In this document: one piece after another, positions 2,943-43,300 of the stretch
How positions within the stretch are numbered: position 1 is the stretch's first letter
Layout of the letters: each line of letters begins with the position of its first letter
DNA from: Bacillota bacterium
GTDB taxonomy: Bacteria; Bacillota; Sulfobacillia; Sulfobacillales; Sulfobacillaceae
DNA: 43,882 nt
Direction of reading: 5' to 3'
Assembly: GCA_021797675.1 (NCBI GenBank)
Contig: JAJZZH010000168.1
Span: 1-43,882 of the forward strand
The notes under the pieces: generated by a model
What the model saw: only the letters and a program-made list of their open reading frames with translations
Told to the model about the DNA's origin: nothing
Database searches by the model: none
Program-made: the position numbers and the translations under genes

Positions 2943-3125
2943 ATGATGGAGGAGGAGAAAAATTCGGAGCGTTTGAAGGTCGTGCCGACTCTTGGCCAGG
3001 CTCCGGTCGAGCTGACTCGCGTCCTTCCGCGGGGGCTGGTGCGGTGGGCGTTTTGGGGGCTGCGCCTATATATCGCGGCGATGCTGGTCTTGGTGGGGAT
3101 TGGATTCAGCCGGGGGATGCACTGA
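2943..3125 (+). CDS. Small single-helix membrane protein
   Basis: This 60-aa protein begins at an ATG preceded by AAGGAGGG (2928-2935). An upstream in-frame codon would give 92 aa but lacks a ribosome site and overlaps the previous gene. The product has a charged N-terminus (MMEEEKNSERLK), a proline-containing linker, and one hydrophobic helix at about residues 36-55 (ending MLVLVGIGF) followed by a short tail. It lies 89 bp after the NRAMP-related gene with no terminator between, so it is probably co-transcribed under the M-box. No family is recognised. A regulatory or accessory subunit of the transporter is a reasonable but untested idea. Confidence 0.6.
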   Translation: MMEEEKNSERLKVVPTLGQAPVELTRVLPRGLVRWAFWGLRLYIAAMLVLVGIGFSRGMH

Positions 3126-3681
3126 GCGCGTCAGTTAATGAACGGTGTGCCCGCGTGGTGGTCGGGCCAGAGATCGTCATGAGTGGTGACGTAGGGAGTG
3201 CCCAAGCGACCGACCACATCCGCCGCCAAGTGGGTGAGACGCATGGCGCATGGGTGACAAACCGAGACGTTGACTGGGGAGCGTTGCGAGGGAGAATCGA
3301 TGGGCAGCAAATCAGGTAGTGGTCTTTGACCCCATGCACCACCGATCCACCGATCCACCGAGGGACTTGCGATCCTCGCGCTCGTTCCTACGTACCGCGC
3401 TTCGGTTTCGCTTGGATTTTGGTTGACCCAAGGTCATGGTCGAATGTGGGTGGATTCGGAGAAGCGAAAAGTTGGGTTGATCTGCTGTCGAACGGATGCT
3501 CCGATACCCCAAGGGGTGGTAGGATGAGCACAAACCCATTTCCGTCAGGGGGCGGCGTGATGCCGCAAGGCTGGCCTTCGCGGGCCAATGGATGGTCGGA
3601 TGGACGGATGGCTGGTTGATCTGGATGGAAGCGCTTAGGTCGGCCTTGGTGGTCAGAGCGCGAATTCGAGGAGGCGCAGAC
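3126..3681. other. Non-coding stretch with short degenerate repeats
   Basis: No gene is supported. The stretch has short reiterations of CACCGATC near 3346-3360 and of GGATGG/CGGATGG at about 3588-3626. The latter lies just before the racemase gene and could be read through as an N-terminal extension, but without a ribosome binding site. No terminator with a T-run was seen after the small membrane protein gene. Confidence 0.6.
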
Positions 3682-8700: not shown

Positions 8701-10243
8701 GTTGAATCGCCGAGGTGGCGTTGACCAGCCCGGTGTCCATGTGTCGGAACGTCTCGGCGGGGACCACCGGCGACGGGGCGGGCGAGGGAGCGGCCACCGG
8801 CGCATCGGCCGGGTGCTTGTCCCCAGCATGGCGGGAGGAGGGGCCGGATGGCGCCGGGGTCAGGGTGCCGTTGGTGCCGATAGCAAACACGTGCAGATTG
8901 CTATTCTGCGGGAGCGTGATTGACGCGATGGTCTTGCCCGCTGCGAGCGGCACCGTCGCCAGGTAGACGCCGACTTGGTTTCCGGTGAGGCCTGCCGAAC
9001 TCGTCTCGGCCACGCTGGCGACCAGGGTATCGGACGTACCGGCGGCGCTGTCTGCCAGCCAGTTGGGAAACATGAGAGAGAACGACTGCATGGTCCCGTC
9101 GGTATACGTTATCATGCCCGTGCCCGACTGATTGCCATAGGTGGCGGCGCCTAAGAATCCGAGCGTCGTTCCCGATCCCGAAAACGGGATGCGTTGGCCG
9201 CCCGCATCCACCGTGTCGCGGCTGCCGGCTGGCACATTGGGCCAGGTAAAGTGGACGCCGTCGAAGGTCAGGGCCGCACCCGGCGCAAACCCGGCGGTTT
9301 GCAGCGATTCGGCGGAATAGCTGTAAGGCACGCCGAGCCCTCCGAAAATATCCCCCGCCCCGGGGTTGGACGCGCTCGAAATGGCGATGGCATTGAAGGC
9401 ATCGGCAAATGACGTGTAGATGGGGATCGCATTGGTGGTCTGGAAGTTCCAGGCGGTGGCTGTGGTTTGAATCCAGGGTAGGGATTTGACCACGCTTAGA
9501 TCGAGTGCGTTCGAAAGGCCGTATGCTCCGCCGGTTCCGTTGGCCACCTGGACGGTGTAGGAGCCGGGAGGGACGTACGGAGGCACCTGAAAACTGAAGT
9601 AATAGGCGTGGGACCAACTGATCGTGAAGCTGGTCTGCCGGCGATGCGGCTCTGAGATGGCGGTGAACACCTGGCCCGACTGCGTGTTCTTCAGATAGGC
9701 GACATCATTGTACCAAGGGTGGGATTGGTTGCCATTCCACAGATTGGTGCCGAACACCCGCAGCTGTTCGCCAGGGACAACGGTCTGCAACGACTGCGAG
9801 AACAGATCGGGCGTATTGGCCAAGAACGGCGGAGAATAGCCAGCCTGGGTCTTCACCCACACCACCTCGGGACCGCCATTGTCCGCCGGGGCGACCGTGG
9901 TCAAGATCTGGCCGCTTTGGTATTCGGGGGTTGCGGTCATCGATCCGGCGGGAGGGGTGGTGGGCAGACTGGGGATGGTGGAGGGACTGGCCGCCTCGGC
10001 CATGAGCGTGTCGGTAGTGGCGGCGGGAGGCTGCCATATATAGACCGTTCCCCCCATCAAGTTGTCGCCGGTAATTTCAAACGAGTCATTTCCTCCCAGG
10101 ATGGGCCCGACATTGCTGATGGCCGGTGGGGCGGTAGCCTGCGGCGTGCTTTGGGCGAACACGGAGGCTTGCTGTGCCAACGGTGCGCACAGCAAGCCGA
10201 TGGGGAGCAAGACAGCCAGGGTTATGCGGGAAAGCCGTTTCAT
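5705..10243 (-). CDS. Secreted pectate-lyase-like beta-helix protein with Ig-like and LVIVD-type repeats
   Basis: This 1512-aa protein starts with a clear signal peptide (MKRLSRITLAVLLPIGLLCA..., probable cleavage near SVFAQ). A beta-rich N-terminal part opens with a TIG/IPT-like stretch at about residues 40-75. From about 500 to 1075 it matches pectate-lyase superfamily right-handed beta-helices, opening with TSAIQHALDAAAKAGGG and IVALPPGLFG. Residues about 1080-1160 form a bacterial Ig-like (BIG2) domain (VTATVYDQSG...). The remainder has beta-propeller-like LVIVD repeats (VVNVSNPADP, IDVSNPANL, IDISNPAQM) and ends in a Ser/Thr-rich tail. It probably binds or cuts polysaccharide outside the cell; no catalytic residues could be assigned. 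AGGAGGAGA precedes the ATG by about 7 bp. Confidence 0.85.
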   Translation of the reverse strand: MKRLSRITLAVLLPIGLLCAPLAQQASVFAQSTPQATAPPAISNVGPILGGNDSFEITGDNLMGGTVYIWQPPAATTDTLMAEAASPSTIPSLPTTPPAGSMTATPEYQSGQILTTVAPADNGGPEVVWVKTQAGYSPPFLANTPDLFSQSLQTVVPGEQLRVFGTNLWNGNQSHPWYNDVAYLKNTQSGQVFTAISEPHRRQTSFTISWSHAYYFSFQVPPYVPPGSYTVQVANGTGGAYGLSNALDLSVVKSLPWIQTTATAWNFQTTNAIPIYTSFADAFNAIAISSASNPGAGDIFGGLGVPYSYSAESLQTAGFAPGAALTFDGVHFTWPNVPAGSRDTVDAGGQRIPFSGSGTTLGFLGAATYGNQSGTGMITYTDGTMQSFSLMFPNWLADSAAGTSDTLVASVAETSSAGLTGNQVGVYLATVPLAAGKTIASITLPQNSNLHVFAIGTNGTLTPAPSGPSSRHAGDKHPADAPVAAPSPAPSPVVPAETFRHMDTGLVNATSAIQHALDAAAKAGGGIVALPPGLFGISRTLVIPPGVELHGAGAGATTITVLNGSYLKSPSSSAPVLNEWGQSFGNTAPLIWLQTEDGIANLTVRGGPGAGAGVLIEPPIYGQVATHVFLNRVTVSLKSSQMLATRQVQATGAIGIAFGSSSNGLGIWNSTIAAPYPVLAFMNAGGEIARYARILNDTFNYTPRQSGDESATFPSFQHAMFADNTVNNGTTGLQWYGQSDNWFYNNVFTGIGGEQNSSEQLFDQLHTTFWYAPVASATATTLTSASYQNQTLASVEANSWAGSAAATLKAGLPIYAVIVGGPGFGEYRRVASVSNDTIKLNRPWNITPNATSEFVLTQEPTHNIYLRNASTNTNGDFLTTAGLGQVFAMTQATMSGGMLAWQGRTYPTQYGPMPLGQITLNAWNTIIGSDLRYSGGIDEGIRGTIKPAGAKIFPIRFANLITQNLVTGGVGSIQPSQAINQYSPYWDGRSCPLSLYCGPYDLVNRAAGIDVNGQDNIVENNDVVGLPTGIWITGSGAGNVVRRNQIVYPAYTGILDSTHQSIITQNTIIQSPANSAPQPTTLTVSPQSLTLAPNASHTVTATVYDQSGQPMTGQTITWSSANSKIATVNATGTVTGVSAGSTTITAAVDGLSAKVAVTVSLPPGTMRVAAQSVSSLPGGALALSGNNLFVGGRISSTASQLSVLNPTSLAVVGSVYMPGAYPDGAPAAYGNYVYWPVNHAGLQVVNVSNPADPKVVNRIPLTSNSLTFAAQVAGTDLYVTTVSGVAVFSLANPALPQLLGTIGVPPGPFYAGMHHLYEIPWDSSKLTVINDVYGSGFGQTVGTFDLAKYPQYSGGSTTWSSFLPSSQLYKSGNNLYVGVTGRTTSFMGVLAIDVSNPANLTLSSAISLGAAPPSNTTGITGLNGAGNHLFVAVQTPNSERGLYNIDISNPAQMTLTSKLLNSPSPYLTVFWNQSVAVIGNYVYVTGVNPPVMSVYVEPSTPSTSSSAASGTG

Positions 10244-14094: not shown

Positions 14095-15081
14095 ATGATC
14101 CGGGAAGTTGCAAATACGCGCTCTGGTGCGACCGGAGCGCAACCGCATCCAAAGCAAGAGAGTTTGGCGAAACGCCAGTGGACAACCTTTCGCAAAAATA
14201 AGGAACTGTTCATTCTGTCGCTCCCGGCCCTCATCTACATTTTGGTGATGTCGTACTTGCCGATGGTAGGCGTTATCATCGCGTTCAAGCAGTATTACGA
14301 CATCTCGGGAATTTTCGGCAGCCCGTGGGTGGGCTTGCAGAATTTTGCGTTCTTCTTTCAGAGTCAGGATGCATGGATCGTGACCCGGAACACGGTGTTA
14401 TACAATGCCGCGTTTATTGTCTTTGGAACGGTGTGTGCGGTGGGCTTGGCGCTCGTGATGCATCAGGTGAAAACGTCCAAGCTGCTCATCGTCTACCAGA
14501 CCGTGATGCTCTTGCCGTACTTCGTATCCTGGATCGTGGTGGCCTATATCGTGTATGGATTTTTGAGTCAGCAATACGGCATGTTGAATTCTGTGGTCGC
14601 ATTTTTGGGGCTAAAACCCATTAACTGGTATCAAGCGCCCCAATACTGGCCGGTCATTTTGGTGTTTTGTGACTTGTGGCGCCGGGTAGGATTTTCGACC
14701 CTGGTGTATTTCGCCGGCATTATGGGCTTGGATCCGACCTATTTTGAAGCCGCGATTATGGATGGCGCCACACGGTGGCAGATTGCGCGGTCGATCACCG
14801 TGCCGATGATCAGCAATCTGATTGTGATCCTGTTTATTCTGGCGGTCGGGACCATCTTTAATGCCGATTTTGGACTGTTCTATTTCGTGCCGAACAGTTC
14901 GCCCTTCTTGTCCTCGGTCACCGATGTGATTAACGTGTTCGTCTACAACGCACTCATCAACACCGGGAGCATCGGCATGGCGGCGGCGGTCGGCCTCTAT
15001 CAATCGGCCGTGGGGTTCGTGTTGGTCATTTTGACCAATTGGATCGTACGGCGAATCAGCCCGGAACATTCGCTCTTTTAG
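14095..15081 (+). CDS. Sugar ABC transporter permease, LplB type
   Basis: This 328-aa membrane protein has six predicted helices after a cytoplasmic N-terminal tail. It carries the EAA loop that docks the ATPase (EAAIMDGATRWQIARSITVP). The opening helix LFILSLPALIYILVMSYLPM and the GVIIAFKQY segment are typical of LplB-like CUT1 permeases for oligosaccharides or uronides. GGGGGAGAG precedes the ATG. It is the first gene of the transporter operon, followed directly by the second permease and the binding protein. No ATP-binding subunit is encoded in the window, as is usual for Gram-positive CUT1 systems that share an MsmX-like ATPase. Confidence 0.93.
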   Translation: MIREVANTRSGATGAQPHPKQESLAKRQWTTFRKNKELFILSLPALIYILVMSYLPMVGVIIAFKQYYDISGIFGSPWVGLQNFAFFFQSQDAWIVTRNTVLYNAAFIVFGTVCAVGLALVMHQVKTSKLLIVYQTVMLLPYFVSWIVVAYIVYGFLSQQYGMLNSVVAFLGLKPINWYQAPQYWPVILVFCDLWRRVGFSTLVYFAGIMGLDPTYFEAAIMDGATRWQIARSITVPMISNLIVILFILAVGTIFNADFGLFYFVPNSSPFLSSVTDVINVFVYNALINTGSIGMAAAVGLYQSAVGFVLVILTNWIVRRISPEHSLF

Positions 15082-15107
15082 TCACTCAGGAATCGGGGGG
15101 ACGTGTC

Positions 15108-15995
15108 GTGCCAAGCGGCGGGATTAGTATTATTCGAGTGGCCTTTCACACCTTGCTGGGGTGCCTGACGGCGATGTTTGTCATCCCCTTTGTCTTGGTG
15201 ATTTCCATCTCACTGAGCAACCAAGGGTGGTTGAACGCGCATGGATTTTCATTGTGGCCCCATGGCCTCACTTTGCTCGCATATCGCTTTATCCTGCAAG
15301 AGCCCGGGATCATCTTGCGGGCCTACGGCGTGACCATCTTTGTCACCGTGGTGGGCACCACCTGCAGCATATTTCTGACCACCTTGATTGGCTATGTCAT
15401 TTCTCGCCCCGACTATGCCTACCGCAGAGTCACCACGTTATACATTTTCTTTACCATGCTGTTTAGCGGAGGGTTGGTGCCGTTTTACCTCTTGATGACC
15501 AAGTATCTCCATTTGGGCGACACGATTTGGGCCATGATCGTGCCAGGCCTGTTGAGTCCCTTTTATATTCTGGTGATGAAAGGGTTCTTGTCGAAAATCC
15601 CGGTGGAGATTATCGAGTCGGCCAAGATCGACGGAGCCAGCGAATGGCGCATATTCTTCCGTCTGGTGCTGCCCCTGGCCACTCCCGCCTTAGCCACCGT
15701 CGGGGTCTTCGCCGCCTTTGGGTTTTGGTCGGAATGGTTCAATGCGCTGCTGTTTATCACGAATCAAAATCTGGTGCCGATCCAATTGTTGTTATATCGC
15801 ATTTTCGAGAATATCCAAATGATTACTTCCAATCCCCAAGCAGCGAGTGCACTCGGAATTAACATGAATGCGGTCCCCACGACCGCCGCGATGATGGCCC
15901 TGGTGGTGTTTGTGGCGGGGCCGACTTTGCTGCTGTTTCCGTTATTGCGGCGGTTCTATGTGCAAGGGTTGACCGTCGGTTCCCTGAAGGGGTGA
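15108..15995 (+). CDS. Sugar ABC transporter permease, LplC/YtcP type
   Basis: This 295-aa membrane protein has six helices and the CUT1 EAA loop (ESAKIDGASEWRIFFRLVLP). The C-terminal RRFYVQGLTVGSLKG is the standard ending of LplC-like permeases. The GTG at 15108 is chosen because a GGGGGGAC site precedes it by about 8 bp and it clears the upstream stop by 26 bp. A TTG at 15039 would overlap the first permease and lacks a site. It forms the heterodimeric channel with the preceding permease. Confidence 0.92.
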   Translation: MPSGGISIIRVAFHTLLGCLTAMFVIPFVLVISISLSNQGWLNAHGFSLWPHGLTLLAYRFILQEPGIILRAYGVTIFVTVVGTTCSIFLTTLIGYVISRPDYAYRRVTTLYIFFTMLFSGGLVPFYLLMTKYLHLGDTIWAMIVPGLLSPFYILVMKGFLSKIPVEIIESAKIDGASEWRIFFRLVLPLATPALATVGVFAAFGFWSEWFNALLFITNQNLVPIQLLLYRIFENIQMITSNPQAASALGINMNAVPTTAAMMALVVFVAGPTLLLFPLLRRFYVQGLTVGSLKG

Positions 15996-16096
15996 TGCCT
16001 ATGTAAGATGGGCGATGGTTTCACGGTGTGCAGGGTCTAATGCAGAGCGGACGGCGACTTCGAGCGCTGCCGACGACCACAGAAAGGATGAATGTC

Positions 16097-17662
16097 GTGA
16101 AGATGACGACGATCAGTAAGGCGGTGATCGGGGCGGCTCTATTAGGGAGCTGCAGCCTCATCGGCACCGGGATAATCCAAGCCGCCCCGGCCCCCGTGTC
16201 GGTGAATTGGTACTATCCGGAATTTAATACGGCGGTTCCGCCGAATCAGAATCAAGTGCAAGCGGCCGTCAACCGCATCACCGAAAAGGCGATTGGGGTC
16301 AAGGTTCACTTGATCCCCATTCCTGGCGGTGGCGCCGCCTATCCGCAAAAACTCAGCGTCATGTTGGAAACCGGGCAGGCGACCGGTATCGTGTGGACAT
16401 CGAGTTGGTCCCTGCCCTGGACGAACGAGGTCGCCGCCAAGGCGTTTTTGCCGCTCAATAGCTTGATCGCCAAGTACGGCAGGGGTCTGACCCGCACGCT
16501 GGGTACCAAGTTCCTCAAAGGGATGGCGTATAACGGTACGATCTATGCGATTCCGAACCTGCAGATAGAAGCGTACCAACCGCAACTGGATGGGGAGATC
16601 ACAGCCAGCGAGGCCAAGGCCCTCAATCTGCAACTGGCCAAACTGCCGGGCGGTGCTTACGAACCGACCAAGATTCACACGTTTCCGGCTTTGCACGCGT
16701 TCTTGGTTAACCTGCACAAAAAGTATCCGAAGCAGATTCCGTTAGTAACGGGGCAGTTCGGCACCGTATTATTTCCGGAAACGTACGGATACTGGGCGGT
16801 GCTTACGGGCACTACAAATCCGTTTTTCGTTAAAATGCAGCCTAGTTACGGGAAGAACCCACCCAAAATCACGTTAGCGCTCAATATGTTCCGACAATAC
16901 ATTGCCATGCTGCATAACTGGTACCAGCAAGGCCTCATTAACCAGGATGCGGGCGACATCACGGCCACCGAGGCGCACGCCCTGCAGGCCACCGGGACAG
17001 AAGTGCTCGAATCGTGCAATGGCGTGCCTGCCTGGAATCCCGGCAACGAGGCGTCCGGCGTGCCGAAGGGGTACCTGCCGATTAACCTCCGCATCACGGA
17101 GGGGCCGCTACACGGTGCCCCCATCTATACGGGTGACGCCAGTACGGCCAATGCGATTGCGGCGGCGACGCCAGCCCCCCAGCGGATGGCGGCGATGAAG
17201 CTGCTCAATCTGGTAAACACCGATTCGCAACTGTACAACCTGATCGCGTTTGGGTTTCCCAAGGTGGATTACAAGAAGATCGGACCGAACAGTATCGTGT
17301 TTACTGCAGCCGGTGCCAAGTATTTTGCCAACGACAACTGGGCGTTTGGGAATGTGACGCGCGGCTACACCCCCACCTCGCCTGCGTATCCGAAGTTCTC
17401 GTGGAAGGTTATGGAAAACATCAACCACCACGCGGTGGCTTCGCCGCTGGTAGGCTTTAACTTCAATACCACGCCGGTGCAGACCCAGTTAGCCGATATG
17501 GCGGCGGTCGAGGCGCAGTGGAACCAGCCCTTGTTGGCCGGGGTGTATCCGGTCAGCAAGTTGAGTAAATTCGAAGCCGCGATGAACGCAGCCGGGCAGC
17601 AGGTCGTGCTCAAAGCGCTCACCCGGCAATTCGACGCGTGGTGGAAGGCCACGCATAAATAG
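16097..17662 (+). CDS. Extracellular sugar-binding protein of the ABC transporter (LplA-like)
   Basis: This 521-aa family-1 solute-binding protein belongs to the LplA-like group of long CUT1 binding proteins. It has a secretion signal, with LLGSC resembling a lipobox at about residues 15-19. An AxA-type site (IIQAAPAP) lies further on, so lipoprotein versus secreted form is unresolved. The mature part shows the usual SBP pattern (NWYYPEFNT, GVKVHLIPIPGG, MAAMKLLNLVNTDSQLYNLIAFG). The GTG at 16097 follows AGAAAGGA by 8 bp; earlier ATGs in frame (for example 16088) overlap that site. It is third in the transporter operon. A stem-loop after the stop may protect its mRNA and raise its level relative to the permeases. 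Confidence 0.9.
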   Translation: MKMTTISKAVIGAALLGSCSLIGTGIIQAAPAPVSVNWYYPEFNTAVPPNQNQVQAAVNRITEKAIGVKVHLIPIPGGGAAYPQKLSVMLETGQATGIVWTSSWSLPWTNEVAAKAFLPLNSLIAKYGRGLTRTLGTKFLKGMAYNGTIYAIPNLQIEAYQPQLDGEITASEAKALNLQLAKLPGGAYEPTKIHTFPALHAFLVNLHKKYPKQIPLVTGQFGTVLFPETYGYWAVLTGTTNPFFVKMQPSYGKNPPKITLALNMFRQYIAMLHNWYQQGLINQDAGDITATEAHALQATGTEVLESCNGVPAWNPGNEASGVPKGYLPINLRITEGPLHGAPIYTGDASTANAIAAATPAPQRMAAMKLLNLVNTDSQLYNLIAFGFPKVDYKKIGPNSIVFTAAGAKYFANDNWAFGNVTRGYTPTSPAYPKFSWKVMENINHHAVASPLVGFNFNTTPVQTQLADMAAVEAQWNQPLLAGVYPVSKLSKFEAAMNAAGQQVVLKALTRQFDAWWKATHK

Positions 17663-17849: not shown

Positions 17850-18782
17850 ATGAAGGCCGTAGAAAAAGACATTCAAGACCGTATTCGCGCCCATGGGCTA
17901 AACCTGGACGGACGGCGCCTCCCCTATGGGTTTGGCGCCGCTTGGCTGAGGACACCCGATAAGGTGGCGGTGTTGGAGGCCGCGTATACTAAGGGGTTTC
18001 GCTACTTTGACACCTCGCGCGATTATGGAGAGAGTGAGCGGATCGTGGGAAGGTTCCTCAAGCAGGTGCCGAGAGGATCACTGTTTTTGGCCACCAAATC
18101 CCACATATTTGAGGCGGCGGTGATCGATTCGACGGATCCTGCGGTGTCGCAGCGTTCGGTTGCGCAGTGGATTTTAAAGAGTTTTGAGGAGAGTCTCGAG
18201 CGGCTGGGTACCGACTATGTGGATTTGTATCAGATTCACGATGTGGATTCGCTGGCCCATTTAGATCTCGCCCTTGAGGAACTGAAACGGCTTCAGGCGG
18301 AGGGGCAGATCCGGTGGATAGGGCTGGCGACGCGTGATCTCGGCCTGCTCGAGCAAGGGCTTGACCGCGGAGCGTTCGACACCATCCTAACCTATTCGGA
18401 TTTTACGCCGCTTCGGCAAACGGCGGCTTCGGTGCTGCGGCGGGCGGCGAAGACGTCTTGTGGGCGGATAAACGCGAGTCCCTTGGGCGGCTGGGGGCTC
18501 ATGCGCGGCGTCGACCCGCGAACCCTTCGCTTTCCTCGGGCGACGGGCGAAAAATTTGCCCGAGAAATGGAACTGGCCGCCAGTTTCTATGATCTGTGCC
18601 AGGCCATTGGGGCCTCACCGCTGACCTTTGCCCTGCAGTTTCCCATCATGAATTCCGATATCGACATCACGTTAACCGGTCCCGAAACCCTGGAGCAGTT
18701 GACGGGTACGCTCAACAACTTAACCCAGCCGATCGACCCGTTGCGCTGGCGGGCATGGGATCGATGGCGCAAGGCCTTGTAA
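17850..18782 (+). CDS. Aldo/keto reductase, possible L-fucose / D-threo-aldose 1-dehydrogenase (copy 1)
   Basis: This 310-aa TIM-barrel oxidoreductase carries the aldo/keto reductase tetrad: D54 and Y59 in YFDTSRDYGESE, K83 in FLATKS, and H130 in DLYQIHD. The DTSRDYGESE form is typical of the D-threo-aldose / L-fucose 1-dehydrogenase branch, which oxidises an aldose to the 1,5-lactone with NAD(P)+. GGGAG precedes the ATG. The next gene encodes a lactonase-type amidohydrolase, and a GH29 fucosidase lies in the same region. Both support sugar oxidation, but the exact substrate is inference. Confidence 0.88.
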   Translation: MKAVEKDIQDRIRAHGLNLDGRRLPYGFGAAWLRTPDKVAVLEAAYTKGFRYFDTSRDYGESERIVGRFLKQVPRGSLFLATKSHIFEAAVIDSTDPAVSQRSVAQWILKSFEESLERLGTDYVDLYQIHDVDSLAHLDLALEELKRLQAEGQIRWIGLATRDLGLLEQGLDRGAFDTILTYSDFTPLRQTAASVLRRAAKTSCGRINASPLGGWGLMRGVDPRTLRFPRATGEKFAREMELAASFYDLCQAIGASPLTFALQFPIMNSDIDITLTGPETLEQLTGTLNNLTQPIDPLRWRAWDRWRKAL

Positions 18783-19057
18783 GCGATTGCGTCCTGAGGA
18801 AGGGAACCAACGCCCTGTTCAGGGCCATGGCGTTCGACGCGTGGGAACCGGCGCTCCCGGCCAGGATGGCCACGGTCAGCAATGGCGCTTTGGTCGGCAT
18901 CGCAGCCGGGTCTCTGCCTTAAGCAAATATTCGGGGTGCTCGCTGGAAAGCGGGGACGCGTCGGCACCGTCGTTTCGACGTTGGCTGGGAAGGCATTGCG
19001 CTACCGGTCTTGGACGTATCGTGGCGTAGACGCGGGACGAAAAGGGGGAAACCCGCC

Positions 19058-19891
19058 ATGTATGTTGATACCCACATCCATTTCATCCAGCCCCCGGTAG
19101 CGAACGGGCAAGACGGCAGCGAGCCAGTGGCCGCGACGAAATCGCCTCGGCGTCTTTTTGCCGACGTGGCCGGGAGCTTGGCTGAGCACGGGGTAAGCGC
19201 CTGCGTCGCCGTGCAGGCCGCGCCGACTATTGAGGAGACGCGCTTTTTGCTCGGCTTGGCCGATGCGCATCCGACGATTGCCGCCGTGATCGGGTGGCTT
19301 AACGTGCGCTCGCCGGAATTTGCCGACGATCTCGCACACTTTGTGGGGGATCCGCGGCTTAAAGGCATTCGGGTGACGGTGCCGGAGCTCTGCGACGAGA
19401 CGGGCCAGCCCTGGGCTGGGGTGGAGCACCATCTCGATCGGCTCAGCAGCGCCGGGCTGTCCCTCGAGTTGTTAGTGTGGCCGGGATTTTTCGAACGGGT
19501 CTTGCCGCTGCTCCGACGGCACGCAGAGCTGCCCATGGTGGTGGGCCATCTGGCGTTTGACGGCCAGTCGCATGCCCGGTGGCACCGGGGGATGACGGAA
19601 TTTGCCGCCCTGCCGAAGGCGCGCACCAAGATTTCGGGCCTGATCACGCAGGCTGAGGGCTTAAGCCGTGAGCGGATTCGCGCGTACGTCGCGGATACCA
19701 TCGACCTCTTTGGCGTTGAGCGGGTCAGTTTCGGCAGCGACTGGCCGGTGGCGCTTCGGGGCGGCACTTACGCGGACGTGGTGGAATTGTTTGAGGACAC
19801 GCTGCCTGCCCGGTTGGGGGAGGACGACCGCGAGCGCGTGCGGGCGAACAACGCCGCAACGTTTTACGGCCTCACCGTGAATCCGGCTTAG
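19058..19891 (+). CDS. Amidohydrolase-2 family sugar lactonase (L-fucono-1,5-lactonase-like)
   Basis: This 277-aa TIM-barrel metal hydrolase starts MYVDTHIHF with the metal-binding H6 and H8. VVGHLAFD holds a further histidine, and FGSDWPV carries the catalytic aspartate of the amidohydrolase-2 family (COG3618). Members include L-fucono-1,5-lactonase and L-rhamnono-lactonase, which open sugar lactones to aldonates. The ATG at 19058 follows AAAGGGGG by about 10 bp and places HxH at the very N-terminus, as in the family. It follows the aldo/keto reductase whose lactone product would be its substrate. Confidence 0.85.
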   Translation: MYVDTHIHFIQPPVANGQDGSEPVAATKSPRRLFADVAGSLAEHGVSACVAVQAAPTIEETRFLLGLADAHPTIAAVIGWLNVRSPEFADDLAHFVGDPRLKGIRVTVPELCDETGQPWAGVEHHLDRLSSAGLSLELLVWPGFFERVLPLLRRHAELPMVVGHLAFDGQSHARWHRGMTEFAALPKARTKISGLITQAEGLSRERIRAYVADTIDLFGVERVSFGSDWPVALRGGTYADVVELFEDTLPARLGEDDRERVRANNAATFYGLTVNPA

Positions 19892-20167: not shown

Positions 20168-22165
20168 ATGCAAGTGATCGCAGCCAATGTGCCATTGATT
20201 GAGCCGCCCGAGTGGGCGATTTTAGAGCGGCAACTGATCGCGTTGATGAATCAGGCGGTGGATCCGGTTGTAGCTCGGTATATCAAAGAAGACGGTTCCG
20301 TGATGTGGCCGCCGGCTGACGATCATACCGGAGTGGACGCCTTGGATGACGCCTATGAAAGTTTTTTCAGCTGGCCGCTGTTTTACCTTTTGGGCGGCGA
20401 CGACAAATTCCTGCAGTTGGCTCAGCGCGAATTTGACGCGGTCACCCGGCAATATGCCCGCTATGCCACCGGATTCGGCCATCCGATGGTGGTCAAAGAA
20501 TATGAACAAGGGTACGACTGGTTTCATCAGGGCGAGGGCTATCTCTTCTTTTACCTATTAAATCTGGCGGCACCGACCAACCAAAGAAACCAGGAGCGGT
20601 CCCGGCGCTTCGCGGGATTTTTCGTAAACGAAGATTCCGACGCGTTGAATTATGACCCCGAACACCAGTTAATGAAATGCTCGCTCATTGGCAGCATGGG
20701 ACCGGGGCATCAGCTGTTTGCCGGTGCGGACTTCGGATATCGGCCCTATATGGAATATTACGGACTCGCTTTTCAGGATATCGAAGGCATTGACAGCCTC
20801 GAAGATTTACACGATCCGGCCAAAGCCGCACGATTTCTAGCGGTTGTGCAACAACGCTGGGCGTACGGCGATGCGGTGATGAACCTCGCCGTCACCAGCA
20901 TGATCGCCAATGCCTATCTGCATACAGCGGAGGAAAAATATCGGCAATTTGTCCAAGACTATGTCGGGGCGTGGATTGAGCGCGCCCAGCAAAACGGCGG
21001 CATTGTGCCGGATAATGTGGGCCTTACCGGGCAAATCGGGGAGTATTTCAATGGCAAATGGTACGGGAGCCGCTATGGCTGGACGTTTCCTCACGGGTGG
21101 TCCAGTGTGGGCGCCGGGGTGGTGGTGGCCAGCGAAAATGCCATGTTGTTGTGCCAAGACGCCGGTTGGCTCGAATTTGCCCGCTCCCAGATTGATATCT
21201 TGATGAGCCAAGGGATAATGCACGAAGGGACGTTGCACGTTCCGCACAAGTACGGTGACCGGGGGAATTACACATATACGCTCTGGATAGCCGATGTGCT
21301 GTTTGAGGATGGCACGGTCTCGCTAGGAGAGGATAATCTAGCTGAGGGCGAATCGTTGTCGAAGAACACGGTGTTATGGCAAGACGGATGGTTTGAATTT
21401 TACCCGATGGATCCCAAATTCATGACCCACGTGTGGTACCTGTCGATGGATGCGGGCGATAAGACGCGGTTAAAGCAACTGCGCAACCACCGCCGCAGGG
21501 ATTGGGAACACGTGATATTCGAGCCCCATTCGAAAAAAGACCTGGGCGGCAACGATCAGGCCTGGGTGGCCTTCCTCGATGGCGAGTTCCCCGACTATCC
21601 CGAGCAGATTTTGCAGCATAATCTGGCCCAAGTCTACCACCGTCTGGATTTCATGGGTCAGGACCGCCAAGACCCGCGTACTTACGGCGACGCCTACTTG
21701 CAGCTTCGCAACCCGATCAGTCTGGAAGGCCTCATTCAACTGACGATGGGCGGTCCTCGGCCGATCTATAACGGGGGGCTGTTGATGGTCCGGGTGCGGT
21801 ATTACGATGGCGATCGCCGTCGGCCGGGACTGCCGGAGGACGTCGCCGCCCTGGTCACCGCGGTCGAGGCAGATCGCACCGTGCTTGAGCTGGTGAACTT
21901 AAGCGCTGCCCAGGAGCGGAGCGTGATTGTCCAAGCAGGCGGGTTCGGCGAGCATCAATTTACCGAGGTGCACTATGCGGTGCGACAGAGCGGGGAAACC
22001 GTTTCGCCTCATTACCAAGGCCGGGTCGCCCCAAGGACGGTGGAGCACAGCCGGACGGTGAACGGCCAATGGTTCGAGGTGCGGTTGCAGCCAGCCTCGC
22101 AGATCACGCTGGATATCGGAACGAAGCGGTTTGTGCACGATCCGTCGTATGCCGAGCCGTGGTAG
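20168..22165 (+). CDS. Uncharacterised 665-aa protein, possible (alpha/alpha)-toroid carbohydrate enzyme
   Basis: This 665-aa protein has no signal peptide or membrane helix, so it should be cytoplasmic. The first 450 residues are helix-rich and full of aromatic and acidic residues (WPPADDHTGVDALDDAYESF, EYEQGYDWFHQGEG, SLIGSMGPGHQLFAGADFGY, FPHGWSSVGAGVV). This pattern is common in (alpha/alpha)6 glycoside hydrolases and lyases. The last 100 residues look like a beta-sandwich (VTAVEADRTVLELVNLSA). I do not recognise a named family. It lies between the lactonase and the second aldo/keto reductase, and the stop is 13 bp from the next start, so it belongs to the sugar operon. GAAGGGG precedes the ATG. 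A role in opening the imported oligosaccharide is a guess. Confidence 0.75.
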   Translation: MQVIAANVPLIEPPEWAILERQLIALMNQAVDPVVARYIKEDGSVMWPPADDHTGVDALDDAYESFFSWPLFYLLGGDDKFLQLAQREFDAVTRQYARYATGFGHPMVVKEYEQGYDWFHQGEGYLFFYLLNLAAPTNQRNQERSRRFAGFFVNEDSDALNYDPEHQLMKCSLIGSMGPGHQLFAGADFGYRPYMEYYGLAFQDIEGIDSLEDLHDPAKAARFLAVVQQRWAYGDAVMNLAVTSMIANAYLHTAEEKYRQFVQDYVGAWIERAQQNGGIVPDNVGLTGQIGEYFNGKWYGSRYGWTFPHGWSSVGAGVVVASENAMLLCQDAGWLEFARSQIDILMSQGIMHEGTLHVPHKYGDRGNYTYTLWIADVLFEDGTVSLGEDNLAEGESLSKNTVLWQDGWFEFYPMDPKFMTHVWYLSMDAGDKTRLKQLRNHRRRDWEHVIFEPHSKKDLGGNDQAWVAFLDGEFPDYPEQILQHNLAQVYHRLDFMGQDRQDPRTYGDAYLQLRNPISLEGLIQLTMGGPRPIYNGGLLMVRVRYYDGDRRRPGLPEDVAALVTAVEADRTVLELVNLSAAQERSVIVQAGGFGEHQFTEVHYAVRQSGETVSPHYQGRVAPRTVEHSRTVNGQWFEVRLQPASQITLDIGTKRFVHDPSYAEPW

Positions 22166-22178: not shown

Positions 22179-23135
22179 ATGCTCAGAGAACCCTTTAAAC
22201 AAGCGGTCAAAGCGTATTATCTCCGGCAGTCTGGTAAAGTCCTCCCGTATGGTATGGGGTGTGCCTGGCTGGGAAGAGAGGAATTGAATGATCGCAATAT
22301 CCGGCAGGATACCGCCGTCTTGTTGAACGCCTATCGCAACGGGTATCGATTCTTCGACACCTCGATGAACTATGGGGAAAGTGAGGTGATCGTCGGTCAT
22401 TTTTTGCAAAAGGTACCAAGGGATGCGGTATTCCTGGCCACCAAATCGGCCTACATTCCGGAGGACGCGTCCTCCAAAGCGGCCGCGGAATTGGTGCAAG
22501 CAAGCCTTCAGGACAGTTTGCGGAGGCTTCGCACCCCGCGCATCGATCTGTTCCAGTTGCACGAGATCGTGACCCTCTCCAATATTCTCGATCAAAATGG
22601 GGTGGTGCAAGTGTTGAATGAAGCCAAGCGGCAGGGGCTCATTCGCTATGCGGGCGTGACCACCCGATTCGTGGAATTGCTCAAAGATGCTGCCCGATCG
22701 GGGGAATTTGATTCCGTTCAATCCTATGGGCGATATAACCCGGTGGACCAATCCGCGACGGCGTTGTACGCGGTTGCGGACTGCCTGGGGGTTGGCACCA
22801 TCAATGCCGGTCCTCTGGCCGGATTCTTTACCGGCGCCAACCCCCGCGATATGCAGTTTCCATATTTCAACGAACGACGAGAACGGCAAAGGTCAGCTGC
22901 CATTCAATTGTACGATCAGTGTCAAACATGGGGCGTCTCGATGCGTGCTTTGGCGCTGCAGTTCCCATTGCGCAACCCCCACATCGACCTGACCTTAACC
23001 GGACCGGCCAATTCGGAGCAGGTCGCGTCCGGCTTGGCCTCATTGCTGGATGAACTCGATCCGGTCACCTGGGACCGGTGGGAGGCCTGGAAAGACATGA
23101 ACATTGGCCCGAGTGCCTATGACGGATGCGAATAA
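22179..23135 (+). CDS. Aldo/keto reductase, sugar dehydrogenase type (copy 2)
   Basis: This 318-aa paralogue of the protein at 17850 has the same tetrad: D60 and Y65 in FFDTSMNYGESE, K89 in FLATKS, and H128 in LFQLHE. Both copies share LPYG at the N-terminus, the ESExIVGxFLxxVPR block, the ALQFPxxNxxIDxTLTGP block and the DRWxxW end. They therefore arose by duplication rather than from different branches. The ATG at 22179 follows GGGAGGTG and lies 13 bp after the previous stop. Two diverged copies in one cluster suggest either two sugars, such as L-fucose and D-arabinose or D-galactose, or opposite anomers. Confidence 0.88.
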   Translation: MLREPFKQAVKAYYLRQSGKVLPYGMGCAWLGREELNDRNIRQDTAVLLNAYRNGYRFFDTSMNYGESEVIVGHFLQKVPRDAVFLATKSAYIPEDASSKAAAELVQASLQDSLRRLRTPRIDLFQLHEIVTLSNILDQNGVVQVLNEAKRQGLIRYAGVTTRFVELLKDAARSGEFDSVQSYGRYNPVDQSATALYAVADCLGVGTINAGPLAGFFTGANPRDMQFPYFNERRERQRSAAIQLYDQCQTWGVSMRALALQFPLRNPHIDLTLTGPANSEQVASGLASLLDELDPVTWDRWEAWKDMNIGPSAYDGCE

Positions 23136-23256: not shown

Positions 23257-24450
23257 ATGACTACATACTTACGTGGTATCACCTGGGATCATACTCGGGG
23301 ATATGTACCCCTGGTCGCAACGGCCCAGCGGTTTCATGAACGCCATCAGGATGTCGATGTTCTGTGGGATAGGCGTTCCCTGCAAGGGTTTGCACACAAT
23401 ATTGACACGCTGATCGATCACTATGATTTGTTGGTCATTGACCATCCGTGCGTGGGAGATGCGAGTAGCCAGCAATGGTTGTTGCCCTTGGACCAATACG
23501 TCGCCCCCAAATACTTGGCGGAATTGGCTGACCAGTCCGTTGGGCGCTCACACGCGAGCTACCAGGCTGACGGGCACCCATGGGCCCTGGCAATCGATGC
23601 CGCAGCTCCCGTCGCAGTCAGCCGGCCTGATCTCTTTGAACGCATGGGGGTCGATAAGCCAAGGGATTGGAGCGATGTCGTGGCCTTGGCGCGAAGAGGA
23701 TGCGTGATTGTTCCGGCGAAGAAAATTGACCTGTTGATGCACTTCTATATGGTCGTCAATGCGATGGACGGCGAGCTATTTGAAGACGGTCGGGTTGCCC
23801 CGAGAGACATCGGTATTTTAGCACTCGAAAGCCTCCGGGAACTGTTGCAGTGGTGTCCGAGAGAATCTCTCGATTTCAGTCCCATTCAGGTCTATGAGGC
23901 GATGGCCGATCAGGATCATTATGCATATTGTCCCTTCATCTATGGTTACGTGAATTACAGTCAGCGGGGATATGCCCGTAACCCCTTGGATTTCGGAGAT
24001 TTGGTGACGTGGCGCCATCAAGCCCCGTTGGCGGGGGTGTTAGGAGGAACGGGTTTGGCGATTTCGTCCCGCACGAAATACATCGCTCAAGCGGTTTCGT
24101 ACGTCGAATATGTGGCGAGCGTAGCGACCCAAGGTACGCTCTACCCCGCGGCTGGAGGTCAACCCGCGATTAAAAGCGTATGGCTTGACGACGAGGTCAA
24201 CCGATCGACCCATCAGTTCTATCGAAATACTCTGCCGGCCTTAGAACGATCCTACTTGCGTCCCACATACCCTGGATATCTCCTCTTCCAGGATCGGGCA
24301 GGCGATCTCATTCACTCATATTTCCGTAATGGTGGAACCCCGCAAGAGGTTGTGGAACGGTTAGATAAGCTGTACCGGGGCTCCTTAGAAGGTGACATCC
24401 GAGGAGACGCCGGGAGTTCGTGGGATGCCCTGGGAAACCGAAAGCGGTGA
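23257..24450 (+). CDS. Solute-binding-protein-like protein lacking a signal peptide
   Basis: This 397-aa protein resembles family-1 sugar-binding proteins throughout: RGITWDHTRGYVPLVATAQRFHERHQDVDV at the start, DLLVIDHP, LPLDQYV, and GGTGLAISSRT near the hinge region. It begins MTTYLRGITWDHTRG, with no hydrophobic signal or lipobox. The start is firm, because AGGGGGAC lies 6 bp before the ATG and no upstream in-frame extension adds a signal. It should therefore stay in the cytoplasm. Possible roles are a cytosolic ligand sensor or carrier; export without a signal seems unlikely. Confidence 0.8.
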   Translation: MTTYLRGITWDHTRGYVPLVATAQRFHERHQDVDVLWDRRSLQGFAHNIDTLIDHYDLLVIDHPCVGDASSQQWLLPLDQYVAPKYLAELADQSVGRSHASYQADGHPWALAIDAAAPVAVSRPDLFERMGVDKPRDWSDVVALARRGCVIVPAKKIDLLMHFYMVVNAMDGELFEDGRVAPRDIGILALESLRELLQWCPRESLDFSPIQVYEAMADQDHYAYCPFIYGYVNYSQRGYARNPLDFGDLVTWRHQAPLAGVLGGTGLAISSRTKYIAQAVSYVEYVASVATQGTLYPAAGGQPAIKSVWLDDEVNRSTHQFYRNTLPALERSYLRPTYPGYLLFQDRAGDLIHSYFRNGGTPQEVVERLDKLYRGSLEGDIRGDAGSSWDALGNRKR

Positions 24451-24804
24451 AGAACGATCTCAGCCGAGGACAGCACGGTTTAGGACCACAGGCAAGGGAA
24501 ACATTATGAGAGTCCTGGAGGCGGATGTTCCCGTTCATGAGCCAGGGTGGCGATTTTGGAGCGGCAACCGATCGACTGCATTGGCAGGCAGCACCCGGGT
24601 TGACCCGGCCGATTAAGGAGCCTGGTCCGCCTATGGCGACACCTCCCCCCGGGGGGAACGTGCGGTCTTCAATCTACCCGCGGGCATATCAATTTACAGC
24701 AAGGTCGGTAACATTGGGCCAGGTTTTCTGCGACGAACCGCAAAAGTCGCGCCGCGGTACGCGAGCGGCCGACATGGCCAATTTTGTCATGGGAGACGAA
24801 CACT
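24451..24804 (+). pseudogene. Probable degenerate coding remnant
   Basis: Protein-like pieces occur in different frames: MRVLEADVPVHEPGWRF from 24506, and later AYGDTSPRGERAVFNLPAGISIYSKVGNIG at about 24630-24720 in another frame. No continuous frame joins them and no family is recognised. It may be the decayed remains of a gene once between the binding-like protein and the second RraA-like protein. Confidence 0.3.
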
Positions 24805-25686
24805 GTGGAAAAATTTTGCCCGCTAAATCTCACGTCGGAAGAATTGATCGAGTACACGTATGAGTGGAAAGGGGAACGTTTTCCCGATGGCCGGCCGAAG
24901 GTGCCAGATGATCTGCTCGAAGAATTGCAGCAAGTGACGATTACCCAGGCCTGGGCGGTGCTCACCAACGCCGGGTACGCGTGGCAATACGAAGACGGCT
25001 TTATCTGCACGCACCCTGGTCAGGTGTTGGTAGGGCGCGCCTTGACCGCGGTCTACATGCCGCGTCGTCCCGATATGCGAAAGCTGATGGAGGAGAAGGG
25101 TGCAAAATATGGATGCATTGGTGACCAGATCTCCTGGCCGATCGATAAATTGTCGACAGGGGATGTCTACGTGGCCGATGTGTTCGGAAAAATCGAGCAG
25201 GGAGCGGTAATCGGAGACAATTTGTCGACCGCTATTTACAGTAAATCGGGAAGAGGGGTGGTCCATGACGCGGCAGTGCGGGACATTGACGGTATTAAAG
25301 CAATGAAGGGATTTACCAGTTTTGTCAGAGGGGTCCATCCGTCCTATGCTTCGCCGACTATCATGTTAACCGGCATCAATGCGCCCGTACGCATCGGCAG
25401 GGTGACGGTAATGCCGGGAGATGCCGTATTGGGCCGAAACGATGGGGTCATCTTTATTCCGCCCCATCTGGTGGCGAAAGTGGTCAGAACGTCACAGCTG
25501 GTGCGGCTTCGCGATGCGTTCGGAAAGCTGCGCCTGCAGGAAGGAAAGTATGCTCCGGGTCAAATCGATGATCGCTGGACGCGTGAAATCGAGGATGACT
25601 TTTCTGGGTGGGTGGAAGATCATAGCGAGCAGTTTTCTTTTTCGAAAGAAGCCATTGAGGAAATGTTAAAAGGCCGCACATGGTGA
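24805..25686 (+). CDS. RraA-like protein, copy 2
   Basis: This 293-aa protein has an N-terminal extension of about 45 residues before the RraA-like core. The core shows ITQAWAVL, a GDVYVADVFGK strand, the metal-site segment VVHDAAVRDIDG (the equivalent of GGVRD) and GDAVLGRNDGVIFIPP. A helical tail follows. It is about 50 residues longer than the copy at 12804 and only distantly similar, so they are not recent duplicates. The GTG at 24805 follows GGGAG by about 9 bp; a TTG seven codons upstream is less likely. Family activities are aldol cleavage or decarboxylation of 2-keto acids. It lies upstream of the fucosidase gene. Confidence 0.83.
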   Translation: MEKFCPLNLTSEELIEYTYEWKGERFPDGRPKVPDDLLEELQQVTITQAWAVLTNAGYAWQYEDGFICTHPGQVLVGRALTAVYMPRRPDMRKLMEEKGAKYGCIGDQISWPIDKLSTGDVYVADVFGKIEQGAVIGDNLSTAIYSKSGRGVVHDAAVRDIDGIKAMKGFTSFVRGVHPSYASPTIMLTGINAPVRIGRVTVMPGDAVLGRNDGVIFIPPHLVAKVVRTSQLVRLRDAFGKLRLQEGKYAPGQIDDRWTREIEDDFSGWVEDHSEQFSFSKEAIEEMLKGRTW

Positions 25687-26109: not shown

Positions 26110-27354
26110 ATGGAACTTACCACTCAGCGAGCATCGTTGCAATGGTTTACCGACGCCAAATTCGGCCTATTTGTCCATTGGGGTCCGTACTCGCTACGCG
26201 GGCTCGAGGCGTCCTGGCCTTTGCAACCGCATAGTCAGCAACACACCCCTGTAAACGAATATGAGGCTTTGGCCGATGAATTTAACCCGATTCGGTATGA
26301 TCCGGAAGCGTGGGTGCGAATGGCCAAGGATGCCGGAGCTGGCTACATGGTGCTGACCTGCAAGCACCACGACGGGTACTGCCTGTTTAGCACCAAGACT
26401 ACGACGTATTCCGCTCCAAATACCGGTCCCCGCCGGGACCTGGTCGCGCCGTTTGCCGACGCGGCCCGACAAGCGGGACTCAAAGTCGGATTCTACTTTA
26501 GTTTGATTGACTGGTACGATCCGGATTTTGCGACGATACCGATCGCTGACTTCATCCGTTCTCCTCGGCCTTTCCAATACGACCCCGTTCGATGGTACGC
26601 CTTTTATCGCCGGTTTGTGACTCAGATTCAGGAATTGTTAACCGATTACGGCTCGGTGGACATCATGTGGTTTGATGTGCCGGGGTTCGCGGCCGAGCGG
26701 TGGTGCAGCCAAGAACTGAAGACGATGATGCGTTCCCTGCAACCGCGTCTGTTGGTCAATGACCGATTGCCTGGGGCAGGAGATTACGGAACTCCGGAAC
26801 AGTTCATTCCAACGGTTCCACCCGACGGGGTCTGGGAGACCTGTATGACGATGAATAATCAGTGGGCCTACCACCCGGACGGCAGCCAATACAAGAGCGT
26901 CGGACAACTGATTCGAAATTTGGCGACCGTGGTCGGCAAAGGCGGCAATTTTTTGTTGAATGTCGGTCCCAAGCCGGACGGCACCTGGCCAGAAGAGGCA
27001 GAGGAGCGGCTGGCGGGACTAGGGGAGTGGATGCGGCAAAACGGGGCGGCGATCTACGGAACGTCTCGCGGTCCTCATCCTGCGTGTTTCGGTGGGCCGA
27101 TAACCCGAAAGGGTGCAACGCTGTACCTTCATGTCTTTAATGTGCCACCGTTTCCGTTGGAACTGCGCGGGGTGTACGGAGAAGTGGCGGGCGTCCGCGT
27201 GCTGCATAGCGGTGAACTGCTAACCTATCGCTATTATGGTGGTGTTCGCCGTCCCGACAAACTGGAGATCGACCTGCCGCAAGCCTCGGCCGATCCGTGG
27301 GATACGGTGGTGGCTGTAGAATTCGCCGAACCCCCGACCTGCATCGAATGGTAA
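26110..27354 (+). CDS. GH29 alpha-L-fucosidase, cytoplasmic
   Basis: This 414-aa protein matches glycoside hydrolase family 29, retaining alpha-L-fucosidases. Key signs are WFTDAKFGLFVHWGPYS (12-28), LTCKHHDGYCLF with H86-H87-D88, VDIMWFD with the nucleophile D189, and GGNFLLNVGPKPDGTWP near the end of the barrel. The C-terminal 100 residues form the usual small beta-domain. There is no signal peptide, so it must act on imported oligosaccharides. That fits the CUT1 transporter upstream. GAGGAGGAGA precedes the ATG by 6-8 bp. Some GH29 enzymes act on 3,4-linked fucose or on beta-galactosides, so linkage is open. It is the strongest pointer to fucose as a substrate of this region. Confidence 0.92.
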   Translation: MELTTQRASLQWFTDAKFGLFVHWGPYSLRGLEASWPLQPHSQQHTPVNEYEALADEFNPIRYDPEAWVRMAKDAGAGYMVLTCKHHDGYCLFSTKTTTYSAPNTGPRRDLVAPFADAARQAGLKVGFYFSLIDWYDPDFATIPIADFIRSPRPFQYDPVRWYAFYRRFVTQIQELLTDYGSVDIMWFDVPGFAAERWCSQELKTMMRSLQPRLLVNDRLPGAGDYGTPEQFIPTVPPDGVWETCMTMNNQWAYHPDGSQYKSVGQLIRNLATVVGKGGNFLLNVGPKPDGTWPEEAEERLAGLGEWMRQNGAAIYGTSRGPHPACFGGPITRKGATLYLHVFNVPPFPLELRGVYGEVAGVRVLHSGELLTYRYYGGVRRPDKLEIDLPQASADPWDTVVAVEFAEPPTCIEW

Positions 27355-32218: not shown

Positions 32219-33034
32219 ATGGGCAGGATTGCTATGAAAGTGAAGAATACGTCATTGCCGAAGGGCACATCAGCCCTTACCACACTCAAAACGTTGGAGA
32301 TCCTGCAATGCCTGGCGGAAAATGGACAACCGATGTCGCTCTTGGATATTCAACGGGCGACGAATTTAGGCAAGACCACCTGCCTGCGCGTCCTGCAGGC
32401 TTTGGAAACCAAGCATGTTGTGCAACGCGATCCGCAAACCAAAAAATACCGGATAGGCCTTCGCCTGTTGGAATGGGGCATGGCCGCCGTCAGTACCCTG
32501 GGGCTACAAGATGTGGGACGGAAATACCTGGCCCTGTTAAGCCAAGCCGCTGGCGAAACGGCGCACGTAGGCGTGCTGGACGCCTACGATGTGGTCTATG
32601 TGGGCCAACATCAACCGAGCAATCCCATTCGGTTTATTGCCCGCATTGGCTCCCGAGCTCCCAGCCACTGCACCGCGATGGGAAAAGTGCTCATCGCCCA
32701 CTTGGAAGGCTCGGAGCGAGGGCTGTACTTCCAGCAGCACCCGCTGACACCAATGACCCCCACCACCATCACCGAACGGCAGGCGTTTGTCAAAGAATTG
32801 GAGACCGTTCGACTCAACGGATTTAGTGTCGACATGGAGGAACATCGGATCGGCGTGCGGTGTATCGCGGCCCCGGTTAGAGGACAAACCGGCCAAGTCG
32901 TGGCCGCCATGAGCATTAGTGGTCCTACCGAACGATTTTCCAGCGACCGCCTGCCGGAGTTGGCGGATTTGGTTCGCCACTTTGCTCAGCAGGTTTCTGA
33001 AGAATTGGGGTACGTGGGCTCCCTGATCGATTGA
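32219..33034 (+). CDS. IclR-family transcriptional regulator
   Basis: This 271-aa regulator has an N-terminal winged helix-turn-helix (about residues 18-80: LKTLEILQCLAENGQPMSLLDIQRATNLGKTTCLRVLQALE). The C-terminal IclR effector domain carries AHVGVLDAYDVVYVGQ, SHCTAMGKVLIAHL and GFSVDMEEHRIGVRCIAAPVR. The last is the ligand-binding signature for small acids. IclR proteins often respond to pyruvate, sugar acids or their keto derivatives. It sits between the SDR/creatininase genes and the dehydratase/aldolase genes, so it likely controls both. The start could be the ATG at 32219 or the one at 32234, where AGGA lies 5 bp upstream. Confidence 0.93.
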   Translation: MGRIAMKVKNTSLPKGTSALTTLKTLEILQCLAENGQPMSLLDIQRATNLGKTTCLRVLQALETKHVVQRDPQTKKYRIGLRLLEWGMAAVSTLGLQDVGRKYLALLSQAAGETAHVGVLDAYDVVYVGQHQPSNPIRFIARIGSRAPSHCTAMGKVLIAHLEGSERGLYFQQHPLTPMTPTTITERQAFVKELETVRLNGFSVDMEEHRIGVRCIAAPVRGQTGQVVAAMSISGPTERFSSDRLPELADLVRHFAQQVSEELGYVGSLID

Positions 33035-33040
33035 CGGCTG

Positions 33041-33064
33041 GCGGACCGAGCGGCGGTCTGCCTG
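33041..33064 (+). terminator. Weak stem-loop after the IclR gene
   Basis: GGCGGACCG and CGGTCTGCC form a 9-bp stem with one wobble pair shortly after the IclR stop. No T-run follows, so the terminator call is tentative. Confidence 0.35.
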
Positions 33065-33254
33065 CCCGTGTGGAAGTCGGCCGCTAGGATGAAAGGGATT
33101 AGTGCTCGGATTTCATAAAGTTGGGTAGATGCTTTGGGTTGGCTGGGGGGTTGGTCATGCGTTTCGTGCACCGCAATGGATAGCAATCATCGGTTGAGGG
33201 CCATGGAAGGTATTCGATGACACGCCGCTGAAGTTCGGCAACAGGGGGATCGGG

Positions 33255-34415: not shown

Positions 34416-34502
34416 GGCGAGAATTCGACGGTGGTCCGGCGGGTTTCCTGCGCGGTCTTCTTAGAAGGGGCAGCAGGTTGCTCTAAGACAGGAGGCAGGT
34501 TG

Positions 34503-43219: not shown

Positions 43220-43300
43220 ACTCTGCAACGGCCTCCTCCGTCACGCTCTGTAAAGTCCGCCATGTCCGACAATTCCGTCTAGTACATCTATTAAAATAAC

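Follow-up and report, generated by a model that had tools for sequence, protein, structure and literature searches.

What reaction is catalyzed by the 665-residue protein that sits, without a name, in the middle of a bacterial sugar operon? The window, which is the whole stretch of 43,882 nucleotides that was analyzed, carries this protein (hereafter T) among genes for sugar uptake and turnover. The original prediction, made from the letters of the DNA, had described T as seemingly a helical toroid followed by a C-terminal beta-sandwich, had assigned it to no named family, and had regarded it as a candidate for a new enzyme activity that is tied to the surrounding pathway by a dehydrogenase gene 13 bp downstream. 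T is a real gene, since it is conserved over its full length across hundreds of genomes. Its reading frame opens with an ATG that is preceded by a purine-rich stretch, runs for 665 codons, and spans 20168-22165 exactly, with the stop ending at 22165. The next plausible ATG, at 22179, is preceded by GGGAGG and leaves an intergenic gap of 13 bp. The predicted spacing was therefore right, and the gene that follows encodes an aldo/keto reductase (AKR; Pfam Aldo_ket_red, E 4.5e-43). No signal peptide was seen by eye at the N-terminus of T; by the same inspection, Tat-like leaders start both alphaproteobacterial copies.

The features of the locus are collected in Table 1. The amidohydrolase upstream of T also matches PDB 4dlf, which we take to be the fuconolactonase of Burkholderia. 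Elsewhere in the window, positions 32219-35384 encode an IclR regulator, an MR/MLE dehydratase that scores 380 bits against the putative D-galactonate dehydratase 3rr1, and a DHDPS-family gene, and look like a second sugar-acid unit. Very large open reading frames on the minus strand flank the sugar genes at 5705-10243 (1512 aa, with beta-helix, LVIVD, and Big_2 matches) and 38489-43228 (1579 aa), and an Nramp-type transporter adjoins a LarA-type lactate racemase family protein at 1510-4965. The same genome (G000) also carries, on contigs C155, C79, C53, and C61, four GH76-like stretches above the Pfam cut-off, three of them within reading frames of more than 900 aa.

Table 1. Coordinates of T, its conserved segments, and neighboring genes in the window.
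Feature	Position	Strand	Remark
ABC sugar transporter permease	14095..15081	+	Pfam BPD_transp_1
ABC sugar transporter permease	15039..15995	+	Pfam BPD_transp_1
Solute-binding-type protein with DUF3502	16028..17662	+	Pfam DUF3502
Aldo/keto reductase	17850..18782	+	Best PDB match L-galactose dehydrogenase
Amidohydrolase_2, nearest L-fucono-1,5-lactonase	19010..19891	+	NCBIfam 140 bits, below equivalog cut-off 400
Protein T, 665 aa	20168..22165	+	Toroid residues 1 to about 540, C-terminal beta-sandwich about 541-665
T residues 57-64, D-A-L-D60-D-A-Y-E64	20336..20359	+	D60, E64 invariant, helix start
T residues 117-123, D117-W-F-H120-Q-G-E123	20516..20536	+	D117, H120, E123 invariant, start of helix 118-134
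T residues 235-239, D235-xxx-N239	20870..20884	+	Both invariant, start of helix 237-253
T residues 298-309, W298-YGSR-Y303-G-W305-TFP-H309	21059..21094	+	Highly conserved motif
T residues 545-563, YYDGDRRRPGLPEDVAALV	21800..21856	+	Conserved motif entering beta-sandwich; D547, R552, G554, P556 invariant
Second aldo/keto reductase, 13 bp after T	22179..23135	+	Best PDB matches L-galactose dehydrogenases
ABC solute-binding protein	23257..24450	+	Pfam SBP_bac_1
RraA-like aldolase-family protein	24784..25686	+	
GH29-type alpha-L-fucosidase	26110..27354	+	Pfam Alpha_L_fucos 7.1e-90

The profile search proposed in the original prediction left T unmatched in Pfam at E <= 1, and no family was matched in NCBIfam at E <= 0.1. 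PDB sequences yielded no meaningful match to T and nothing credible to a profile built from 74 homologs, and the claim that T has no named family thus holds for these three sources. Individual families with related folds gave the same picture. T was unmatched at E <= 1 by the GH88/GH105 family (PF07470), to which one of the 74 homologs matched at E 0.022; by GH76 (PF03663), with none of the 74 at E <= 1; and by GH127 (PF07944), with one at E 0.014. Neither T nor any of the 74 homologs matched the AGE epimerases (PF07221) or DUF2264 (PF10022; hhalign 0.1%, a weak test), the latter being possibly linked to GH154. Profile-profile comparison with the GH88, GH76, GH127, AGE, and DUF2264 sets returned probabilities below 3% for each, a weak test given mixed controls (AGE/GH76 90%, GH127/GH105-like 20%, AGE/GH88 21%, and GH105-like/GH88 only 1.2%).

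Homologs of T were identified in a broad range of taxa. Species-representative genomes contain at least 596 candidate stretches, at least 575 of which encode a relative of T. The best 80 of these relatives were retained, and they include homologs from Paenibacillus and Cohnella (at most 53% identity), Latescibacterota, Poribacteria, Gemmatimonadetes, Chloroflexi, Armatimonadetes, Treponema, and haloarchaea. A plasmid collection added 17 records with a match at >= 80% coverage, from 12 haloarchaea (about 41-44% identical to T), 2 Streptomyces, Nonomuraea, Asticcacaulis, and Sphingobium. G409, which belongs to the same family as the window's genome, encodes two copies with nearly full-length matches. 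T is rare in the sampled part of its own phylum: among 398 genomes including its own, 1 of the 397 others yielded a match, a weak one (G160, E 5.9e-4), and a profile search of 299 phylum genomes recovered the window's own copy, one chance-like fragment, and nothing else. In the set of relatives, 1 of 60 other genomes had a match, and no relatives were found in phages or viral contigs. Of the 80 genome loci, L066 and L077 had a matched stretch that was not a multiple of three and were left out of all counts; near-duplicates and a few other rows were left out of the alignments (A3/A4) and kept in the neighbor counts. Contig C47 of G160 (locus L002) encodes at 40-1995 a 651-aa protein in which the order of domains appears by eye to be reversed. 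It has W-[YF]-G followed by Y-G-x-T-F-P-H in common with T (35% identity over 77 residues) and had no Pfam match above the cut-off.

Collectively, these searches show a widespread and apparently unnamed family, one that has no name in Pfam, NCBIfam, or the PDB sequence data. Whether the family is also new is a separate question, compatible with any mechanism. T could fall within an already defined CAZy family that is missing from the copies of Pfam, NCBIfam, and PDB used here, in which case it would be merely unannotated. New CAZy families may precede their Pfam models. Against this, the annotated homologs that were seen carry the label "hypothetical protein", and no literature on the family was found, in papers that are not searchable by sequence. 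We consider this possibility appreciable, if rather unlikely.

The guess of a helical toroid with a C-terminal beta-sandwich was matched by a confident AlphaFold model based on 66 sequences (mean pLDDT 94.4, pTM 0.94), in which mostly paired helices make up the region between residues 15 and about 527 and strands the region 543-653. The toroid modeled alone was confident too (pLDDT 93.1). Fold comparison, also proposed at the outset, indicated a carbohydrate-enzyme toroid with no close family. A Foldseek search with the full model placed GH127 enzymes first (best E 2.1e-4, TM about 0.3), and a search with the toroid alone placed AGE/YihS-type enzymes on top (E about 7e-4, TM about 0.4). VIA-align ranked GH76 first (Z 14.6 over 287 residues, rmsd 4.8), with GH47 (13.9), UGL/GH88 (13.5), GH105 (12.8), AGE epimerases, and AprG all within about 2 units. 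In a separate comparison the PL2 pectate lyase had a Z of 11.9, as one toroid among many. Overall, Z values of 12-15 for GH76, GH47, GH88/105, and sugar epimerases make T similar to all and close to none, and for mostly helical models scores of this size need not mean that proteins are clearly related. Of the 50 structural matches listed, nearly all are carbohydrate-active toroids; GH154 and GH15 were not recognized among these 50, an absence that excludes nothing. A consistent reading of the model is that T would be a carbohydrate-enzyme toroid that, by sequence, lies outside GH76, GH47, GH88, GH105, AGE, and PL2. The toroid fold is common to hydrolases, lyases, dehydratases, and epimerases, and the predicted "new enzyme activity" may for that reason be a familiar activity in a new family.

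Alignment of 74 homologs revealed invariant residues, among them D60, E64, D117, H120, E123, D163, D235, N239, R272, W298, Y303, and W305; others, including D547, R552, G554, P556, N577, and H596, belong to the C-terminal part. H309 is missing from the haloarchaeal rows, and residues 366-406 form a variable loop. As placed by the model, the invariant groups that start helices 59-64, 118-134, and 237-253 probably line the cleft of T. There, D60/E64, D117/H120/E123, and D235 would be candidates for the acid/base residues, although which of them are catalytic is something that we only infer.

To evaluate the genomic setting of T beyond the window, neighboring reading frames in 86 homologous loci were clustered, profiled, and counted by their distance from T. 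The resulting p values treat related loci as independent, and the mechanical calling of reading frames means that part of the neighbors are spurious. AKR homologs of the L-galactose/L-fucose dehydrogenase type accounted for 12 of 256 reading frames within 1.5 kb of T and for none of 808 beyond (p 3.1e-8); they were present in 12 of the 86 loci, absent from the other 74, and in all 12 cases oriented in the same direction as T. RraA (11 of 256 versus 3 of 808, p 2.4e-5) and amidohydrolase_2 (4 of 256 versus 0 of 808, p 3.3e-3) were likewise enriched. RhaM-type mutarotases occurred three times within 1.5 kb and not beyond, following T in three Paenibacillus loci, and relatives of the DUF3502 binding protein were found within 3 kb in 9 of the 86 loci and twice further out. 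MR/MLE and Gfo/Idh genes showed no significant enrichment near T in the 86 loci. A separate Pfam count compared 113 near reading frames (trimmed by hand from 162, mainly longer ones) with 92 far ones and yielded 9 Aldo_ket_red and 8 RraA matches in the near set; both were absent among the 25 far-set families listed (counts 2 to 1), where a single far match is possible.

Mapped onto a phylogeny of 87 proteins, the presence of an AKR calls for a minimum of 6 changes; it is found in each of the two large clades, and in Bacillota as well as in Chloroflexi/Latescibacterota. The window's T groups with AKR-carrying Paenibacillus and Cohnella copies (support 91). The Paenibacillus locus L081 has the order MR/MLE, amidohydrolase_2, AKR, T, two permease relatives, and binding protein. 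In Nonomuraea (L012) a further AKR, outside the count of 12, directly follows T in a frame that overlaps it, and in Streptomyces (L010) a frame that by eye resembles L-rhamnose mutarotase follows T. The proposed tie between T and a sugar pathway is thus borne out, because the dehydrogenase neighbor recurs beside T in distant phyla. PhyH-family dioxygenase genes are also found no more than 3 kb from T in 14 of the 86 loci (e.g., L017, L042, L045, and L090), and in two Chloroflexi loci the gene immediately after T encodes a DUF5107/TPR protein (L053, 3422-5650, and L090, 10966-12996).

Other copies of T reside in settings of pectin and uronate use. A pectate lyase is annotated nearby in 7 of 10 haloarchaeal records examined (12 haloarchaeal matches in total), several of which also have MR/MLE, DHDPS, uxaC, or IclR genes, and in Asticcacaulis T adjoins an MFS transporter with kdgD near. 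Pectin genes of the haloarchaeon Haloterrigena turkmenica are described in a genome survey (PMC3102087). Rhamnogalacturonan I, as described, joins uronate and rhamnose (PMC4454575), and the fucose-type and uronate contexts of T could therefore meet in one substrate.

The explanation that we favor, tentatively and at somewhat less than an even chance, is that T is an intracellular glycosidase that frees an L-fucose-, L-rhamnose-, or L-galactose-type sugar from an imported oligosaccharide into a non-phosphorylating pathway. Since several operons encode sugar-type ABC importers, T can be placed as the enzyme that makes free sugar from the import. The transporter would bring in a short oligosaccharide, which T would cut in its toroid cleft; the freed sugar would be oxidized by the neighboring AKR, delactonized by the fuconolactonase-like amidohydrolase, dehydrated, and finally split by the RraA-like aldolase. 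The confident toroid and beta-sandwich, the carbohydrate-active structural neighbors, the linkage to AKR, RraA, and amidohydrolase_2 genes, the match of the AKRs to L-galactose dehydrogenases, and the GH29 fucosidase on the same strand all argue for glycosidic hydrolysis. Against it, sequence comparison ties T to no glycosidase family (Pfam; profile comparisons), most loci lack an AKR, MR/MLE and Gfo/Idh genes are not significantly enriched near T, the haloarchaeal and alphaproteobacterial copies accompany pectin/uronate genes and not the AKR set, and the nearby GH29 gene could by itself act as the fucosidase. It is improbable that T is instead an AGE-like toroid epimerase or isomerase that converts a sugar, either free or at a chain end, into the epimer oxidized by the AKR. 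Such a role would suit a sugar catabolic operon, and Foldseek run with the toroid alone ranks AGE-type epimerases and YihS isomerases first, but those have a TM near 0.4 and Z values tied with glycosidases. AGE enzymes use several histidines and are not known to carry such an extra beta-sandwich, whereas H120 is the sole invariant toroid histidine of T in 74 homologs.

The main rival to a glycosidase is a uronide dehydratase or lyase. On oligosaccharides that come from pectin or otherwise contain uronate, such an enzyme would generate a 4,5-unsaturated uronosyl terminus or cleave by beta-elimination, with the released product passing to the neighboring pathway. The toroid fold does not prove hydrolysis, since the one-time GH154 family turned out, as reported, to comprise uronate dehydratases (PMC12269599), and an RraA-family protein is described as working in a uronate pathway (PMC8563752). 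The pectate lyases and uronate genes beside haloarchaeal T and the Asticcacaulis arrangement point the same way. However, neither the NNW motif reported for the dehydratase BcGDH nor its tyrosine/arginine residues are evident among the invariant residues of T, the set of AKR, lactonase, and mutarotase suggests a neutral aldose, and no unsaturated-uronyl hydrolase was seen beside T in the window, nor was the GH88 profile matched in the genome assembly. We judge this alternative unlikely, albeit clearly less so than an epimerase. In a more far-reaching reading, plausible though less likely than not, T founds a new toroid/beta-sandwich family, spread across haloarchaea and numerous bacterial phyla, whose activity would be new to the fold, for example cleavage of L-fucosyl, L-galactosyl, or uronosyl-rhamnose linkages in imported oligosaccharides. 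It would feed a variant of the non-phosphorylating deoxy-sugar pathway that relies on AKR and RraA. With hundreds of members, a sugar-enzyme fold, and a repeated link to deoxy-sugar genes, the family is a concrete target for new carbohydrate activity. Its function could explain the use of plant or algal oligosaccharides by Paenibacillus, Chloroflexi, Latescibacterota, and pectin-degrading haloarchaea, and would let databases name a protein now called hypothetical.

Among known enzymes, GH88/GH105 share the paired-helix toroid with T (UGL 1vd5, 305 residues, Z 13.0, rmsd 5.0; 4xuv, Z 12.8), tied with other toroids. A D-xxx-N stretch in one GH88 sequence resembles D235-xxx-N239 of T and is a lead only. 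The families differ in that no sequence-profile link was found and T is about 290 residues longer, with an added beta-sandwich; the catalytic Asp pair of GH88/GH105, sought in T by profile alignment, gave a probability below 3% in what is a weak test. GH76 alpha-1,6-mannanases and GH47 mannosidases have the top Z values but only 7-12% identity at rmsd 4-5 A and no profile match for T. GH127 beta-L-arabinofuranosidases resemble T in length and in having a toroid with beta domains, and they rank highest when the full model is searched with Foldseek, but the rmsd is about 14 A and T lacks a Pfam match; AGE/YihS enzymes likewise differ in their low TM and have no sequence link. GH154 presumably has the same fold class as T. 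It also shares a sugar-processing setting, and its member BT_3677, some 640 residues long, likewise carries a second domain, but the BcGDH active site (E, R, NNW, F, Y, R, Y, Y), compared by its reported residues, is unseen among the invariants of T (PMC12269599). The closest parallel to the operon is the non-phosphorylating L-fucose route of FucM, FucA, FucB, FucC, and FucH (mutarotase, dehydrogenase, lactonase, dehydratase, and aldolase; PMC11199699), with a related operon described in PMC6946681. The route as described there has no counterpart of T (PMC11199699), and the T loci differ from it in that the dehydrogenase is an AKR and the candidate aldolase is RraA-like, but they share with it a mutarotase, an aldose dehydrogenase, a lactonase, an MR/MLE dehydratase, and an aldolase-family gene, found around T in various loci.
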